Source: an uncultured Candidatus Marinamargulisbacteria bacterium
GTDB taxonomy: Bacteria; Margulisbacteria; Riflemargulisbacteria; GWF2-35-9
DNA length: 37,897 nt
Direction: 5' to 3'
Assembly: GCA_903910705.1 (NCBI GenBank)
Contig: CAIWAN010000019.1
Span: forward strand, 1 to 37,897
Shown here: piece after piece, positions 2,948-28,736 of the stretch
Layout: each line of letters begins with the position of its first letter
Numbering within the stretch: position 1 is the stretch's first letter
The notes under the pieces: model-generated
Told to the model about the DNA's origin: nothing
Databases searched by the model: none
Seen by the model: only the letters and a program-made list of their open reading frames with translations
Program-made: the position numbers and the translations under genes

Positions 2948-3723
2948 AGCGGACTAATTTCTATTTCTAGTCCATCATAGGCTAGCTCGACCCCGTCAGG
3001 GAGTTCGGCATTGACCTTATCGTAATCAAGATCGTGTGTGGTGTGGATCAAATAGGCCTTCTTTGGGGCGATACGTTTGATCATGTCGAGGGTTTCGTCG
3101 ATATTCATATGGGTTGAATGTTGCCGATATCGTAGCGCATTGATCACGAGATGATCGATCCCTTTCAATTGGTCAACGGTTTCATCCGGCAGCGTCTTGA
3201 TATCGGTTAAATACGCCGCATTATGAAAACGATAGCCCAGAATACAGAGCGTGCCATGAAACGCTAACAGCGGCAAAACGGTGATACCCGCGACACCAAA
3301 GGGGTGATACGCAGGGATCTGAAGAAGTTCAATATCGGGAACCCCTCCCCCTCTTTGCTCCAAAGGCTCAAAAAAATAATAAAAAGTCCGTTGGATCCGC
3401 TCCGCTTCCGACCCCAAAATATAGACAGGGATCCGACCCGAGGTGGCATTCATTGCGCGGACATCATCCAGTCCACCGATATGATCGTGATGGGCATGCG
3501 TTAAAAGGATAGCATCCAATCGACGAATATGATGATTTAACGCTTGTTGGCGAAAATCCGCCGACGCATCAATGAGAATACTGTGTTTTTCGTCATGCAA
3601 CCAAGCCGACGTTCGAAGGCGTTTGTTTCGAGGGTTGGAACTGGTGCAAACCGGACATTGACACGCGATCTCCGGCACACCATGCGACGTTCCGGTCCCC
3701 AGTAATGTTAATTTTAGGGTCAT
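2944..3723 (-). CDS. MBL-fold metallo-hydrolase (PhnP-like)
   Basis: LLGTGTSHGVPEIACQCPVC; HAHHDHIGGLDDVR; 4-bp overlap with flanking genes. Confidence 0.88.
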   Translation of the reverse strand: MTLKLTLLGTGTSHGVPEIACQCPVCTSSNPRNKRLRTSAWLHDEKHSILIDASADFRQQALNHHIRRLDAILLTHAHHDHIGGLDDVRAMNATSGRIPVYILGSEAERIQRTFYYFFEPLEQRGGGVPDIELLQIPAYHPFGVAGITVLPLLAFHGTLCILGYRFHNAAYLTDIKTLPDETVDQLKGIDHLVINALRYRQHSTHMNIDETLDMIKRIAPKKAYLIHTTHDLDYDKVNAELPDGVELAYDGLEIEISPL

Positions 3724-4625
3724 GCCTTCAGTTTAAGCGTCGAGAGCGTCTCACCACTCGCCACCAAATAGGCTGAAAGTTGATCGACCAATTCGCCGGA
3801 TAAAGAGGGGCGCACAAAATTCATCATCCCCACCGAGACCGCATCGGCACCCACGAGTAAAAACTTGACCACATCCTCAACGGAGGCAACCCCACCCATG
3901 CCGATGATCGGAATATCTACGGATTGCGCCACATCGTAAACCGCTTTCAGGGCAATGGGCCGAATGGCAGGCCCAGATAATCCGGCTGAACCCCGTTTAA
4001 AAAATAGTGCCTTCTTGGCAATATCCACATCCATGCCAGGGATCGTATTGATCAAGGATAAGATATCGGCCCCTGACTCGACGGCGGTCTTGGCCAACGC
4101 GACAATATCGGGCACACTCGCCGACAATTTGACAATGAGGGGTTTAAGCGTCACCTTTCGCACCGCTTTGGTTAAGCGAGAAACCATCGGCAGATCCTGA
4201 CAAAAAGCAAGTCCACCCGCATCTACATTGGGGCAACTGATATTGAGTTCGATGGCATCGACACGGTCAACCTGATCGAGTCGTTTGGCCAGTTCGACAT
4301 TCTCTTCGAGTGAATGTCCTGCAATGTTAGCGATCACTTTTACGCGATCGAAGGCTTCCAGTTTTGGCAAGATAGAATCCATCAAAACGTCGATCCCATG
4401 ATTAGCCAACCCGATCGAATTCATCATACCCGAGGGTGTCTCGGCAATACGAGGCGGGGCGTTCCCCTCTCTGGGGTTGAGCGTTACACTCTTTAGCGTA
4501 ATGGCGCCCAATTTATTGATATCGAGATAATCGGCAAACTCGACCCCATATCCGAACGTTCCGGATGCCGTCACGATCGGGTTCTGAAGCGTAAGTGGCC
4601 CTAATTGAACGGTTGTCTTTACCAC
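3720..4625 (-). CDS. pyrD: Dihydroorotate dehydrogenase B, catalytic subunit
   Basis: NPIVTASGTFGYGVEFADYLDINKLGAITLKSVTLNPREGNAPPRIAETPSGMMNSIGLAN; NISCPNVDAGGLAF; adjacent to pyrK. Confidence 0.96.
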   Translation of the reverse strand: MVKTTVQLGPLTLQNPIVTASGTFGYGVEFADYLDINKLGAITLKSVTLNPREGNAPPRIAETPSGMMNSIGLANHGIDVLMDSILPKLEAFDRVKVIANIAGHSLEENVELAKRLDQVDRVDAIELNISCPNVDAGGLAFCQDLPMVSRLTKAVRKVTLKPLIVKLSASVPDIVALAKTAVESGADILSLINTIPGMDVDIAKKALFFKRGSAGLSGPAIRPIALKAVYDVAQSVDIPIIGMGGVASVEDVVKFLLVGADAVSVGMMNFVRPSLSGELVDQLSAYLVASGETLSTLKLKA

Positions 4626-5365
4626 AGCAACGCTCCATCAAAAACAGGTCCATCGCTGCATACTTTCTTATAACCGGACTTTGTCTCGATCACGCAGCCC
4701 AAACAAACACCAAAACCACAGGCCATTCGGGCCTCGAGGGACACTTCACAGCTCACACCCGCTCGCGCAGATGCCTCGACGATCTCTTTCATCATCGGGA
4801 TAGGGCCACAGGTCACAACATGCTGTGCCTCATGCTGGCGAATAACCTTCTCAAACCCTGCACAAACATAATGCCCAACCTCTTCATCCACATGGGTTTG
4901 AACGGGCAAATTTGCCCAAACCATCGCCTCTTGGCGTGTTCGGACGCCATGCAATATTTTGACCTCATTGTGCGCTTTAAGGCGATCATACAAATAGATA
5001 AGCGGGGCCACCCCGATCCCACCTCCAACCAAAAGGACTTTCTTCTTTTTAGGAAGCGTAAAGGTATTTCCGAGCGGACCAAGGAGTTCAACCTCATCGC
5101 CTTTTTGAAGAGTGGTCATAACGGTTGTCACGTCACCCTTTACTTTATAGAGAATTTGAATGGCCTCTTTGTCTGTGCCATAAATTGAAAACGGACGCTT
5201 TAATAAATTGGCGTTGGTTCGACTCGGTAGGGACACATTAACAAAATGACCGGGTTTGACCTGCCTGACGAGTTGCGGTTCACGGATAGAGATAATAAAC
5301 GTATTGGCCGCGACTTCACTTTGTCCAACAACGGTGCCTATTTGGATTTGTTTACGCTGTGACAT
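4619..5365 (-). CDS. pyrK: Dihydroorotate dehydrogenase B, electron-transfer (FAD / iron-sulfur) subunit
   Basis: LKRPFSIYG; LLVGGGIGVAPLIYLYD; MACGFGVCLGCV...CSDGPVFDG cluster motif. Confidence 0.95.
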   Translation of the reverse strand: MSQRKQIQIGTVVGQSEVAANTFIISIREPQLVRQVKPGHFVNVSLPSRTNANLLKRPFSIYGTDKEAIQILYKVKGDVTTVMTTLQKGDEVELLGPLGNTFTLPKKKKVLLVGGGIGVAPLIYLYDRLKAHNEVKILHGVRTRQEAMVWANLPVQTHVDEEVGHYVCAGFEKVIRQHEAQHVVTCGPIPMMKEIVEASARAGVSCEVSLEARMACGFGVCLGCVIETKSGYKKVCSDGPVFDGALLW

Positions 5366-6369
5366 TCAAGGATTTTCTTTGAAATAGATAATACCGACGA
5401 CAAGATCTCTGGGCTGATCCGTTGATGGAAAACCGTCTTCATCACGATCGTTAGTTTATCGGTTAGCGCAAATAAGGTAACAGGTCCGGGGCCCAACTCT
5501 TGAAAAAAATGATCCCCGCTATCTCGGACAGGATACTCGCCCACCTTTTTCAGTCCATCGATCGTCTTTCGATCATACGATTGTAAATACTCAACATGAA
5601 ACGCTCGGATCGGTTTATACAGCGCACTTCGACGCTCAAATAAGATCCCTTTTGTTGCACCATGTGCCTTGAGGATATAGCGAAGAATATGATCCGCGTG
5701 TCGTGCCTCATCGGTCTCATCACCCAGCTCATGTATGAACGAAATATAATCGCTCATTCGTGTTCGTTCATATTTTGACTCATAGCCCACATAGAGATCG
5801 TAATAGTGTCGTCCCCATGAGAACAAATGCGGCTTGAGCGCCTCACGCCAATCTGTATCAGCTTTTCGAGTTGCTTTTGTACAGGTTAATACAAACCCAA
5901 AGAGACCGGAATTTGAATCAACTAAGGGAAAGAAATCCGTAACGCCAAGATGTTGAAATAATCGCAATTCTGACCCCAACTGAGACTGGAACTCACTGGG
6001 CAGAAAAATATCGTCTTCAAAATAGGTGCGAACGTTTTGAAGCGAGTGATGATGAGGGTGAGATTTCAAGAGATCCACGATCAAGCTATCCTTTTCAAAG
6101 GTCAGGGCATCAACTTGAAGCGCATCTAACCCACGCCAGCTCGCCAACTGATAACGACCCTCTCGATGAATAAACAACATATAGTCCCGAATATCGACTT
6201 TTTTAAATTGGGCTTCGATCATCATCTCTTGTTCATGAAGAAGCGTGTTTCGAGGAGAGATCGGCTGAATATTAAGGGGGGCCTGAGTTTTTTTAGTCAT
6301 GAGTCGCGGAAAGGCCATTGTACTTCCATTGTATGAAGGAAAAACCGACCTGACAAGCGACCTTTTCAA
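5338..6369 (-). CDS. Hypothetical protein, possibly with GAF-like folds; start codon uncertain (TTG 6369 or ATG 6318)
   Basis: Long ORF translationally coupled between lon and pyrK (overlaps 4 and 28 nt); no family recognised with certainty. Confidence 0.75.
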   Translation of the reverse strand: MKRSLVRSVFPSYNGSTMAFPRLMTKKTQAPLNIQPISPRNTLLHEQEMMIEAQFKKVDIRDYMLFIHREGRYQLASWRGLDALQVDALTFEKDSLIVDLLKSHPHHHSLQNVRTYFEDDIFLPSEFQSQLGSELRLFQHLGVTDFFPLVDSNSGLFGFVLTCTKATRKADTDWREALKPHLFSWGRHYYDLYVGYESKYERTRMSDYISFIHELGDETDEARHADHILRYILKAHGATKGILFERRSALYKPIRAFHVEYLQSYDRKTIDGLKKVGEYPVRDSGDHFFQELGPGPVTLFALTDKLTIVMKTVFHQRISPEILSSVLSISKKILECHSVNKSK

Positions 6370-24107: not shown

Positions 24108-24935
24108 TTATGAGCGCAGAATACGGGTCGGGATGTTCGCCTCGATCATTTTTTGTTTGATCGCAGACACGGTGGTTTCACCGAAATGAAGCATGGAGGC
24201 TAAGAGTGCGGCATCCGCAACATCGAGGATCTCCACGACATGATCAAGCGTTCCCGCACCGCCCGAAGCAATGATCGGGATACGAACGGCCTGACGAATG
24301 GCGGTCGTCAAAGGGCGATCATAGCCTTGTTTTGTCCCATCAGCGTCCATACTTGTTAAAAGGATTTCGCCTGCCCCAAGGGACTGGGCATACGTGGCCC
24401 ATTTCACGGCATCAAGCCCTGTAGGGGTTCGCCCCCCATGGATGACAACCTCAAATTGACTCTGTTTATCGAGCGCGCAGGCTTGACGAAGGCTATTGGG
24501 GATCGATTCATAATAATACCCTACATCTGAACATCGAGATCGGGCATCAATCGCTACCACGACACATTGGGTGCCAAATTGATGGGCCCCCTCCTCGATC
24601 AAAGTAGGGCGCATCACCGCTGCCGTATTGATCGAAACCTTCTCCGCTCCGGCCAAGAGAATGTCGCGCATATCTTGCGTGCTTCGGATCCCTCCACCAA
24701 CAGTAAACGGAATAAACACTTCATTCGCCACACGTTCGACTAAATCAAGAACGATATCTCGATCATCCGATGAAGCCGTTATATCAAGGAACACCAGCTC
24801 ATCAGCTTGCTGTTCGTTATACGCTTTAGCCAGAGCCACTGGGTCGCCCGCATCCGCAAGATCAACAAAGTTGACCCCTTTGACAACACGACCTTTATGA
24901 ATATCGAGACAAGGAATAATCCGTTTTGCGATCAT
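24108..24935 (-). CDS. hisF: Imidazole glycerol phosphate synthase cyclase subunit HisF
   Basis: [83 protein letters not shown]. Confidence 0.95.
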
Positions 24936-25624
24936 CGGATTTCACACTTTCCAACGGCCTGAGCAAAATAATCTCGCATCTCCATGATCTCCTCTTCTTT
25001 TATAGATAAACGTTTTGTCTCTTTAGCCAATGTTACCTTGCTATTAAAAGGCTGTAAATAATAGGCAGGGGCACCCGCCACAAGCGCTTTAATAGCACCC
25101 CACTCTTCCCGCGGGAAAAAAGGAGGATAAAGGGTCGAGCGAAACTCGTAAGGAACGTTATCGTCTTTCAAAAATTCGATCGTCTCCGAGATCCTTGACC
25201 ATAACCCTTCGTGGTTTAATCCAAGCGGAAACACCTGTTTGTAGAGTGTGGGGCTTGTCTTGATATCCATGGCAACATAGTCGATTAGTTTGGCTTCGAC
25301 CCAACGCTTGACCTTGTCAGGCTGAGTCCCATTCGTATCGAGTTTGACTAACAGATCGAGGGCTTTGATCTTGATGAGAATATCCTCTAGGTCGGGGTAC
25401 AGAGTGGGTTCTCCACCCGACACACACACCCCTTCGTAGAGATGCTTCTTCGTCTCTAAATACGAAAGAACCTCCCCATCGTTGATGTCGGGGAGGCTCT
25501 CTGGTTTAAGAACAAGCTCTGGGTTATGACAAAATGCGCATCGAAAATTGCATCCACCAAAAAAGAAAACCGAGGCTATTTTATCGGGATAATCGATAAA
25601 GCTGGTTTTCTGCCATCCTTTCAT
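24932..25624 (-). CDS. nrdG: Anaerobic ribonucleoside-triphosphate reductase activating protein (radical SAM)
   Basis: [30 protein letters not shown] (CxxxCxxC); [16 protein letters not shown]. Confidence 0.93.
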
Positions 25625-26151
25625 GCCACCATCAGGCGTTCGATCTGAGCGGGGGTATGGGCCTTTGTTACGAGCTCGCCGGCAGCATTAAAGAACAGGA
25701 CGGTTGGCGTGCCGGTGATGTTAAACCGGATCGCCTCTTCGAATCCTTCACGGGTTCCGGCATTGATCTCTTCACCGGTCATGTTGACCTGCTTTAATAC
25801 GTGTTTTACCGGTGGGCATCCAGGGCAATTGTCGGAGTAGAATAATTTATAATTTTTAATGTTGCCGTTGTCATTAACAACAAACTGAACCGACTCCACT
25901 TCAGGTGCGGGTAGGCAACACTCTTCAAGAACCGCGTCAGCTGCCTGCGCCACCTCAACACTATCGACAGCGAGCTGGGTATTAAACTCTACGCGATCAC
26001 CATATTCTTCTTTCTTTCCGGCGTTCCAATTCGAAACGGGGCGATAATAACCCACAATTCGAGTATAAACCTCGGTGGATGTACCTTTCACGGTCTTAAG
26101 GCTCTCTTTTAACGACTCGATCTCTTGCTTAACGGTTGCTGCTGTATTCAT
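25621..26151 (-). CDS. Detached glycyl-radical segment of anaerobic RNR fused to a thioredoxin/glutaredoxin-like domain
   Basis: STEVYTRIVGYYRPVSNWNAGKKEEYGDRVEFN matches the normal NrdD C-terminus; C-terminal KLFYSDNCPGCPPVKHVL...TGTPTVLFFN redoxin signature; SD AAGGAGGGG before ATG 26151. Confidence 0.88.
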   Translation of the reverse strand: MNTAATVKQEIESLKESLKTVKGTSTEVYTRIVGYYRPVSNWNAGKKEEYGDRVEFNTQLAVDSVEVAQAADAVLEECCLPAPEVESVQFVVNDNGNIKNYKLFYSDNCPGCPPVKHVLKQVNMTGEEINAGTREGFEEAIRFNITGTPTVLFFNAAGELVTKAHTPAQIERLMVA

Positions 26152-26174
26152 AATAACGTCCCCTCCTTGTTTTG

Positions 26175-28250
26175 TTAGGATGCCTTTTCGGTCGACATCG
26201 AAGATAGCTCTTTTTCTAATTTCTGGATATTTTGATTGATCTCATGCTCTTTTTCTTGCTTACATTTTGGGCAATCAAAATGTTCCCCCGTCAAATATCC
26301 GTGAACAGGGCAAATCGAGAAGGTTGGGGATATCGTCAAATAGGGTATATGGTAGTTATACACTATTTTCTTTACAAGGCTCTTACAAGCTTGCGCACTG
26401 CGAATCCTTTCCCCTAAGAATCCGTGAAAGACGGTACCCCCCGTATATCGTCGCTGAAGTTGATCCTGATGATCCAGCGCTTCAAAGATATCGGGGCTAT
26501 AATCAACCGGCAATTGGGTCGAATTCGTGTAATACGGATCCTTAACCCCAGCCGTGATGATATCCGGATATCGCTCTTTGTCGATCTTTGCCAAACGATA
26601 AGAGGTCGACTCGGCCGGTGTTGCTTCGAGATTGTACATGTCCCCCGTTTCTTCTTGCAGATCGCTGAGTTTGTTTCGCATAAAATCTAAGATGTCTTGA
26701 GCAAAAACGATGCCTTCAGGGGTGGTGATATCTTTACCCATAAAATTGAGCATGGCTTCGTTCATGCCATTAATCCCAATCGTTGAAAAGTGACTATTAA
26801 AACTCTTCAAGTACTTGCGCGTATACGGATACAGGCCCACGTCCATAAGACGATTAATGACTTTTCGTTTGATCACCAACGACTCGCTCGCGAGATCCAT
26901 TAAATGAGCCAGTCGAGAAAAAAATTCGTCCTTTGTTTTTGACAAATACCCGATTCGAGGAAGGTTAATGGTGACAACCCCGATCGACCCAGTTAATTCA
27001 TCCGCACCAAACAATCCGCCGCCACGATTGCGAAGCTCACGTTTATCGAGCTGAAGACGACAACACATCGACCGCACATCGGAAGGATTGAGGTCGCTAT
27101 TAACGAAGTTTTGAAAATAGGGCGTCCCATATTTCGCCGTCATTTCAAAAAGAAGCTCAGCATTGGGCGTTTCCCAGTCAAATTCACGCGTAATATTGTA
27201 GGTTGGGATCGGATAGGGAAACCCTCTTCCGTCCGCATCGCCTTCCATCATCACTTCGATAAACGCCCGATTCACGATATCCATTTCTTTTTGATAATCA
27301 GAGTATTTCGTTTCTTGTGGTTTCCCCCCAATAATCACATTGCGATCCTTCAAATCTTCAGGAACAACCCAGTCCAAGGTAATATTGGTAAACGGCGCCT
27401 GACTGCCCCATCGCGAGGGAGTATTAATGCTGAACACAAAACTCTGGATCTGTTGTTTAACCTCATCAAACCCCATATTATCCACCCGAATAAAGGGGGC
27501 AAGATAGGTATCAAAACTTGAAAAAGCCTGAGCACCAGCCCATTCATTTTGCATCGTTCCAAGAAAATTCACCATCTGAGAGATCAAGGTGCTTAAATGT
27601 TTGGCGGGCTTTGAATTGATCTTATTGATTACCCCACCAAAACCCTCTTCGATAAGCTGACGAAGCGACCAACCGGCACAATATCCTGAGAACATCGAGA
27701 GATCATGGAGGTGATAGTCACCATTACGATGAGCATCTCCCACTTCTTTTGGATAAATATTGTTGAGCCAATAATTGGCCGTCACCGTTCCCGAATTGTG
27801 AAGGATAAGTCCGCCCAAAGAGAAATTGACGTTGCTGTTCTCATTCACGCGCCAATCCGACTGATTCAAATAGCCATCCATCGTCTTATTAATATCGAGG
27901 ATCAGTTTTTCCTTGTCTCGCAGCTTGGTCCGCTGCTCGCGATAAAGAATGTAGGCTTTCGCGGTTTTAGCGTGCCCCATCTTGATGAGAACGGTTTCAA
28001 CTAAATCTTGAATTTCTTCTATCGCAGGGATGGTCTTTTTGTTATATCGAGCGAGCATTTCCTCGACAACATTTTCCGTTAAGGCAGCAGCCTTGTCTTG
28101 ATCATTGCCACCCACCGATTCAGCGGCTTTAAAAATGGCTTCTTGGATCTTTTCTTTTTTAAAATCAACGATCTCGCCATTGCGCTTAATAACTTTTTTG
28201 ACGAGGCCTTTTTTATCTTGAATATCGCGCTTAATTTCTTCCGTAATCAT
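26175..28250 (-). CDS. nrdD: Anaerobic ribonucleoside-triphosphate reductase core (ATP-cone plus catalytic barrel plus zinc motif), lacking the C-terminal glycyl-radical motif
   Basis: ATP-cone VIKRNGEIVDFKKEKIQEAIFKA; CCRLQLDKRELRNRGGGLFGADELTGSIGVVTINLPRIGYL; SPTFSICPVHGYLTGEHFDCPKC; then a heptad tail and stop. Confidence 0.95.
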   Translation of the reverse strand: MITEEIKRDIQDKKGLVKKVIKRNGEIVDFKKEKIQEAIFKAAESVGGNDQDKAAALTENVVEEMLARYNKKTIPAIEEIQDLVETVLIKMGHAKTAKAYILYREQRTKLRDKEKLILDINKTMDGYLNQSDWRVNENSNVNFSLGGLILHNSGTVTANYWLNNIYPKEVGDAHRNGDYHLHDLSMFSGYCAGWSLRQLIEEGFGGVINKINSKPAKHLSTLISQMVNFLGTMQNEWAGAQAFSSFDTYLAPFIRVDNMGFDEVKQQIQSFVFSINTPSRWGSQAPFTNITLDWVVPEDLKDRNVIIGGKPQETKYSDYQKEMDIVNRAFIEVMMEGDADGRGFPYPIPTYNITREFDWETPNAELLFEMTAKYGTPYFQNFVNSDLNPSDVRSMCCRLQLDKRELRNRGGGLFGADELTGSIGVVTINLPRIGYLSKTKDEFFSRLAHLMDLASESLVIKRKVINRLMDVGLYPYTRKYLKSFNSHFSTIGINGMNEAMLNFMGKDITTPEGIVFAQDILDFMRNKLSDLQEETGDMYNLEATPAESTSYRLAKIDKERYPDIITAGVKDPYYTNSTQLPVDYSPDIFEALDHQDQLQRRYTGGTVFHGFLGERIRSAQACKSLVKKIVYNYHIPYLTISPTFSICPVHGYLTGEHFDCPKCKQEKEHEINQNIQKLEKELSSMSTEKAS

Positions 28251-28265
28251 TTCCCTAAACTCCTC

Positions 28266-28709
28266 TTATAACTTTTTTATTTCTTTAATAAATTCGCCTA
28301 CGTCTTTAAACTGTTTATATACTGACGCAAACCTCACATAGGCGACGGGATCAAGGGTCGCCAATTGCTCCATCACATATTCTCCGATCTCTCGAGAATC
28401 AACTTCGCGATCCGTCTTTTTATGCAGCGCATCGGTGATCGCGTCGACTAATTCTTCCACTTGCGCAAACGAGACCGGTCGTTTCTCGATGGCCCGCATG
28501 ACTCCCTTAAGGATTTTTTCCCGCTGAAAGATCTCTTTTGACCCATCCCGCTTTTTTATCATGAGCGGTTTGTCTTCTATCCGCTCGTATGACGTAAATC
28601 GCGCCCCACATTCCAAACATTCTCGACGGCGTCGTATCGCCTCGCCATCAGCAAGCGTCCGTGATTCAAGAACTTTATCCTGATCCTTCGTACAATATGG
28701 ACATTTCAT
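28266..28709 (-). CDS. nrdR: Transcriptional regulator NrdR
   Basis: MKCPYCTKDQDKVLESRTLADGEAIRRRRECLECGARFTSYERIE; ATP-cone VIKKRDGSKEIFQREKI-like. Confidence 0.97.
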   Translation of the reverse strand: MKCPYCTKDQDKVLESRTLADGEAIRRRRECLECGARFTSYERIEDKPLMIKKRDGSKEIFQREKILKGVMRAIEKRPVSFAQVEELVDAITDALHKKTDREVDSREIGEYVMEQLATLDPVAYVRFASVYKQFKDVGEFIKEIKKL

Positions 28710-28720
28710 GTTAACCAGCT

Positions 28721-28736
28721 ACTCTATATATAGTGT
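28721..28736. promoter_or_regulatory. Putative NrdR box ACTCTATATATAGTGT (consensus-like ACACTATATATAGTGT)
   Basis: 15/16 match to the palindromic NrdR consensus, 12 nt upstream of nrdR; weaker second site at 28762-28777. Confidence 0.75.

Follow-up and report, generated by a model that had tools for sequence, protein, structure and literature searches.

The glycyl radical of class III ribonucleotide reductases (RNRs) has so far been described on the same polypeptide chain as the catalytic barrel. The present analysis concerns a 37,897-nucleotide (nt) stretch of an uncultured Margulisbacteria genome of 97.7% completeness (contig CAIWAN010000019.1; this whole stretch is called the window below), in which the radical site of the class III enzyme NrdD lies on a second open reading frame (ORF) beside that of the NrdD core. 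The closest described enzymes, the NrdD proteins of Thermotoga maritima and Neisseria bacilliformis (RNRdb subclass NrdDh; NrdD2 of Wei et al., as far as PMC4493059 conveys that scheme), for which a protein reductant has been shown or suggested (PMC4493059), share with the window the barrel, the zinc motif, the double-cysteine finger loop and the active-site glutamate. They are, however, single chains with their own C-terminal radical glycine and no redoxin, and their finger loop reads SCCR where that of the window reads MCCR.

Small separate proteins with a glycyl-radical end are known as spare parts of pyruvate formate-lyase (PFL), namely YfiD/GrcA and the T4 protein Y06I (PMC8683613). Whereas the enzyme repaired by YfiD/GrcA has its own radical domain, the window core has none, belongs to the NrdD family and is accompanied by a radical protein with a redoxin attached; spare parts for non-PFL enzymes are treated as speculation in the same 2021 paper (PMC8683613). 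Two obligate RNR chains are likewise found in the split NrdJa/NrdJb, whose small chain carries out disulfide exchange (PMC4520616), but this enzyme belongs to class II and occurs in proteobacteria, and its small chain is devoid of a radical site; according to that 2015 paper, split NrdJ is the sole split RNR in a non-viral organism. The fusion of a redoxin to a radical-bearing RNR subunit has a parallel in the NrdB-glutaredoxin of Facklamia ignava, where the redoxin was shown to be the reductant (PMC6187632), although NrdB is a class I subunit with a metal-based radical. Finally, phage nrdD genes also occur in pieces, mostly through interruption by mobile elements such as introns and inteins (PMC3653736), while no intervening element is found in the window, where 23 nt separate two ORFs that each have their own start. 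In the open-licence literature, no description was found of a class III RNR whose radical site is encoded by a gene of its own; since the arrangement is common in Treponema, it may already have been noticed, unpublished, by curators.

Two complementary genes and their conservation

With a probability of about 0.86, we consider that the locus encodes a class III RNR made of two obligate polypeptides, the smaller of which, a radical subunit of 176 amino acids (aa), bears the likely reductant. The nrdD core gene (26175..28250; this and all other genes discussed lie on the minus strand) encodes 691 aa with an ATP-cone, a catalytic barrel, a finger loop and a zinc motif, and is devoid of a glycyl-radical motif. 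As in class III RNRs generally, an NRDD barrel (PF13597, 603 bits, profile positions 1-533 of 562; NF006126, 1113.9 bits) is combined with an ATP-cone (Pfam PF03477, residues 18-108). The missing end of the NRDD profile, positions 532-562, matches residues 25-56 of the second ORF (25621..26151) with E=6.7e-9, above the Pfam gathering score, so that the two products appear as complementary pieces of one enzyme. This second match covers the glycyl-radical motif TEVYTRIVGYYRPVSNWNAGKKEEYGDR (25981..26079, minus strand; radical Gly34 at codon 26050-26052), in which EVY.RIVGY is invariant among 41 subunit sequences. The RxxGY signature of class III RNRs is therefore present, yet on a separate, conserved ORF with its own start, and because the radical glycine lies off the barrel chain the enzyme is termed here a variant rather than an ordinary class III member.

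The core stop codon (26175-26177) and the ATG of the second ORF (26151) are separated by 23 nt and lie in different frames, and a ribosome-binding site, AAGGAGGGG, is read from the sequence at 26160..26168 on the minus strand. A sequence-only reading of this DNA had already located the radical motif on the next ORF, in another frame and behind a Shine-Dalgarno (SD) sequence; its coordinates, radical motif and ribosome-binding site, seen at 26160-26168, were all found correct on recheck, and the profile search that it had proposed for both ORFs indeed shares the NRDD profile out between them. Its account of the second ORF was nevertheless incomplete, as the thioredoxin-like CPGC domain described below had been overlooked. 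It had also compared a two-polypeptide RNR with GrcA/YfiD: the two chains are strongly supported, whereas GrcA/YfiD turns out to be only a partial analogue. The 176-aa product is indeed a small autonomous glycyl-radical protein, but no contiguous NrdD or PFL, that is, no enzyme with an intact radical domain that it could accompany, was found; being the only source of a radical site found in the genome, it would be an obligate subunit and no spare part.

In the window genome, no second or contiguous NrdD match was detected, and across the 8 genomes that represent the class, the window genome included, neither a class I or II catalytic subunit (NrdA/E, NrdJ) nor PFL was detected. With no other NrdD found in the genome and no class I or II enzyme found in the class, the split enzyme should be the working RNR. 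The second ORF is kept as a separate gene in 6 relatives, with 50-93% identity, and the split arrangement occurs in 7 of the 7 sampled genomes of the order. Comparison with a congener (G031) gives, for the second ORF, 0.92 synonymous (dS) and 0.037 nonsynonymous (dN) substitutions per site, hence a dN/dS of about 0.04, and for the core a dN/dS of about 0.01, which indicates strong purifying selection on both ORFs.

Beyond the order, a search through bacterial and archaeal genomes retrieved an ORF with the same succession of helix, radical motif and redoxin next to a truncated core in Spirochaetota, including the cultured Treponema bryantii XBD1002, where the split NrdD is the only one found; it is also the sole NrdD in most other split Spirochaetota examined. 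Of 247 Spirochaetota genomes drawn, 139 had NRDD matches and, among the matches listed, about 100 show a core ending at profile positions 525-539 and about 40 a full-length protein, some genomes having both, in a manual tally based on the end positions of the cores. In two Spirochaetota (G112:C57:688-2538 and G190:C34:2258-4117), NrdD matches reach profile position 562 with one internal stop and may represent splits with a very short gap. The existence of a cultured carrier means that, in T. bryantii, the radical subunit can be supplied, withheld, mutated or substituted while the barrel is left untouched.

These comparisons bear on several ways in which the split could be only apparent. An indel introduced by sequencing or assembly, breaking a single gene, could not be excluded from one genome alone, but it has next to no probability given that about 100 independent assemblies are alike, that spacing and relative frames vary among them, that the second ORF has its own SD and that extra helices are present at both cut ends; it was rejected since the relatives are split likewise. 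Programmed frameshifting or readthrough into a single polypeptide might be suspected in the window, where about 30 codons ahead of the ATG are also open in the second frame, which hence overlaps the end of the core. In loci of the window type (type A), however, the two frames do not overlap in 37 of the 44 that encode a redoxin, which rules out frameshifting there, and the relative frames vary. Besides, an SD-like 5-mer precedes the candidate start in 48 of 55 split loci, compared to 4% of internal ATGs; with non-overlapping, variable frames and SD-like sites of its own for the second ORF, recoding was rejected as hardly credible. No point was found in favour of a degenerate locus with another RNR at work, and the failure to find a further match to NrdD, NrdA/E or NrdJ anywhere in the genome, together with purifying selection on both ORFs, led to the rejection of this very improbable option. 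The search for the same split in related genomes, which the sequence-only reading had called for, thus succeeded across the order and in Spirochaetota, and none of the circumstances that it had named as fatal to its proposal (an indel, relatives with an always contiguous NrdD, a second intact NrdD beside a degenerate locus) was encountered.

Active site, tethered redoxin and candidate docking

The residues expected of the catalytic machinery are retained in the core. The finger-loop motif M395-C396-C397-R398 (27057..27068), Glu542 of NLEATPAE (26625..26627) and the zinc motif C647-x2-H650-x9-C660-x2-C663 (26262..26312), which is complete within the core, are invariant across 28 split cores, and the barrel cysteine Cys191 (27678..27680) is nearly so. 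In pairwise comparison with T. maritima NrdD (4coi), Cys191 aligns with the conserved YC, and Glu542 aligns with the glutamate of T. maritima NIEQVPAE. The double-cysteine finger loop and the active-site glutamate (E542) correspond to NrdD2 as defined by way of PMC4493059, in whose summary Wei et al. tie the pattern of a third cysteine plus glutamate to the use of thioredoxin. According to Burnim et al., double-cysteine enzymes that contain the methionine might use formate or thioredoxin (PMC9669993).

A thioredoxin-fold domain occupies residues ~99-176 of the radical subunit (25624..25857), with its active site CPGC at 25816-25827. Sequence comparison detected it poorly, as Pfam gave only Thioredoxin_2 at E=4.7e-5, under the cut-off, and a search against the PDB only marginal thioredoxin matches. 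The fold comparison then settled the matter: residues 101-170 are modelled by AlphaFold2 with a predicted local distance difference test (pLDDT) score of 95-98, and the top Foldseek matches in the PDB are thioredoxins. Both CPGC cysteines and proline 149 are invariant in 41 relatives, and thioredoxin reductase scores above cut-off in each of the class's 8 genomes. Because the redoxin is tethered and PFL is lacking, thioredoxin-type reduction is a better guess for the window enzyme than formate.

In a genome of the same class (G034), core, zinc motif, radical motif and redoxin are united in a single chain of 818 aa, after which NrdG and HisF are encoded. Type-A loci carry radical loop and redoxin on one chain in 44 of 46 cases, and in the type-B operon of G041 (a second kind of split, see below) a separate 92-aa glutaredoxin-like gene stands between the radical peptide and nrdG. 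Judging from these sequences, redoxin and radical loop are repeatedly joined, with or without the split. Contiguous NrdD proteins with a redoxin after the radical loop were also observed in many Clostridia and some archaeal genomes (L081-L112, L058, L071, L088, L199), while the literature holds a single mention of an NrdD-glutaredoxin fusion, the grx::nrdD of a Lachnospiraceae bacterium (PMC6187632).

The two chains also carry what could be a docking device. In contiguous relatives, exactly 4 residues separate the last zinc CxxC from the radical motif EVY in 56 of 57 sequences, whereas type-A cores continue for 22-34 residues beyond the CxxC in 46 of 46. In the window core this extension is modelled by AlphaFold2 as a C-terminal helix (residues 661-690; 26181..26270) with heptad positions 671, 675, 678, (682) and 685, of which 671/675/678 are hydrophobic in 96-100% of 28 sequences. 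The subunit begins with a helix in turn (residues 4-20, pLDDT 87-91; 26092..26142), whose heptad positions 4, 7, 11, 14, 18 and 21 are hydrophobic (ILVMAF) in 68-100% of 41 sequences. Both patterns are common to Margulisbacteria and Spirochaetota, and the modelled helices probably pair as an antiparallel coiled coil that is cut at its open end.

Other Margulisbacteria families show type B, where the cut falls inside the zinc ribbon: the last CxxC is missing in 9 of 9 linked cores, and all short Margulisbacteria radical peptides (~50 aa) have a cysteine five residues before EVY, at the place of the fourth zinc ligand, as illustrated by the contiguous CPTCGIESEVYS of G034 against VCGKATEVYS of a type-B peptide. 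A zinc ion common to the two chains would hold the type-B enzyme together, and type B may accordingly be an independent docking solution, each split type having its own candidate device. In another genome (G011:C14 and G011:C114; L203, L204), the NrdD core has a complete CxxC although its radical peptide is unlinked and has the extra cysteine as well. In a tree of the cores, types A and B fall on separate branches and the best tree has five changes between split and contiguous states, two for type A, for which one or two origins are not distinguished, and three for the zinc-type split B, at least two of them forced; several long viral branches make the deeper placement unsure.

Taken together, the following scheme can be proposed. 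The core would provide the ATP-cone, the barrel, the finger-loop cysteines and the zinc ribbon, and the subunit the glycyl-radical loop and, borne on a linker, the thioredoxin-like domain. Pairing of the helices would bring the radical loop into the barrel at the place where it enters in the unsplit enzyme, after which NrdG2, encoded in the same operon, would generate the radical on Gly34. After every turnover, the active-site disulfide would be reduced by the tethered CPGC domain, which thioredoxin reductase would recharge in its turn. Such an enzyme would offer a natural system to study how NrdG reaches the radical loop.

Several observations temper this proposal. The support for a two-chain enzyme comes from sequence and from single-chain models, and the model of the core reaches no more than a moderate confidence (pLDDT 73.5). 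In the model of the isolated subunit, the radical loop (residues 24-36) has a pLDDT below 50, a disorder which one would nevertheless expect of a loop that folds solely within the barrel. The retention of Met395 in the core, lastly, leaves room for formate as a possible reductant.

Reductant coupling or exchange after oxygen damage as possible reasons for the split

The two-chain enzyme might owe its split to no more than a neutral event or a benefit in reductant coupling, the loop having moved to the redoxin gene and the chains being permanently complexed. This is possible, though somewhat below an even chance: the ordinary NrdR box of the window operon and the retention of the radical loop with the redoxin in 44 of the 46 type-A loci agree with it, whereas the type-B radical peptides lack a redoxin (the glutaredoxin-like gene of G041 being separate), and core and peptide are on different contigs in G010 and G011. 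Nearly an even chance can be given to a second idea, which extends the two-chain reading rather than opposing it, namely that the split allows an oxygen-cleaved radical subunit to be swapped like a consumable cartridge. Oxygen is known to cleave NrdD at the glycyl radical (PMC3019208), and YfiD, which rescues cleaved PFL, provides a precedent (PMC8683613). More tentatively than the steps above, only the 19-kDa subunit would then need replacing after cleavage, so that the part destroyed by oxygen would be a small protein, in principle cheap to replace.

This exchange is argued from precedent and from gene context, and the context in relatives makes it plausible. In G010, core and nrdG share one contig, while a 55-aa radical peptide is encoded on another (L202, G010:C558:14500-25582, 3036-5735), among oxygen-defence genes: it lies between a Fur-family (Fur/PerR-type) regulator and a rubrerythrin, both confirmed by Pfam, and the row continues with an ORF for a rubredoxin-like product of 46 aa, a flavodiiron-type protein, part of which was confirmed as an ODP domain, and a small ORF resembling desulfoferrodoxin. 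Contiguous NrdDs, usually as a tandem pair, occur in about 25 further Margulisbacteria genomes, the majority of which also encode an unlinked radical protein of ~100 aa with the NrdD motif (L025-L032, L216, L218, L220, L222), which matches the C-termini of the local NrdDs at 18-23 of 30 residues (4 genomes checked, two contiguous NrdDs each). In G071, this standalone protein adjoins an Rrf2-type regulator and apparent ferritin-like, desulfoferrodoxin and flavodiiron genes, which resemble an oxygen-stress cluster. On the other side, the window subunit is encoded in the nrd operon, with no adjoining oxygen-defence gene, and several of the neighbour-gene names used here come from sequence reading and not from profile scores.

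The ~100-aa standalone protein is a better analogue of YfiD than the window subunit, and looks like a spare part for NrdD in the manner of YfiD. The weak matches L025-L032 had been considered as further split NrdDs and were rejected as such, being this standalone protein; most of the genomes concerned have contiguous NrdDs. The genes of such proteins often have Rrf2-type regulators and genes for oxygen or NO stress in their vicinity.

Standalone radical peptides are also found in viral records, 33 of 36 of which have no NrdD core in the record, some records being fragments. Many IMG/VR contigs (L114-L192) encode such peptides of 45-75 aa, some with the zinc cysteine and others with a helix like that of the window, while a published phage collection yielded almost no relatives. 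The archaeal virus ANMV-1 (L213, KP703175.1, 4683-5117) encodes a 145-aa protein, AJP62049.1, annotated as anaerobic ribonucleoside triphosphate reductase, which matches in the glycyl-radical motif only. A wider proposal, tentative and somewhat short of even odds, is that in many anaerobes (Spirochaetota, Margulisbacteria) the class III RNR works with an exchangeable radical cartridge, a small separate protein that alone is destroyed by oxygen and that docks through a coiled coil or a zinc site common to both chains, that its resynthesis is under oxygen-stress control in some lineages, and that many genomes of phages or archaeal viruses supply a cartridge of their own for the core of the host.

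Neighbouring genes in the window

The genes around the split nrdD are tightly packed in the order nrdR, nrdD core, 176-aa ORF, nrdG2 and hisF, with 15 nt between nrdR and the core gene and the 23 nt already mentioned ahead of the second ORF; at the downstream junctions to nrdG2 and hisF, the genes overlap by 4 nt. The partner activase expected of a class III RNR is thus encoded by an overlapping neighbour: nrdG2 (24932..25624) specifies a radical-S-adenosylmethionine activase with a TIGR02495 score of 172.5 bits (cut-off 131.15). At the other end, nrdR (28266..28709), a regulator of RNR genes, scores 189.8 bits with TIGR00244 (cut-off 124.65). Upstream of it lies an NrdR-box-like palindrome, ACTCTATATATAGTGT (28721..28736, no strand assigned), which has 1 mismatch to ACACWATATATWGTGT; all other sites in the window differ from it at 3 or more positions.

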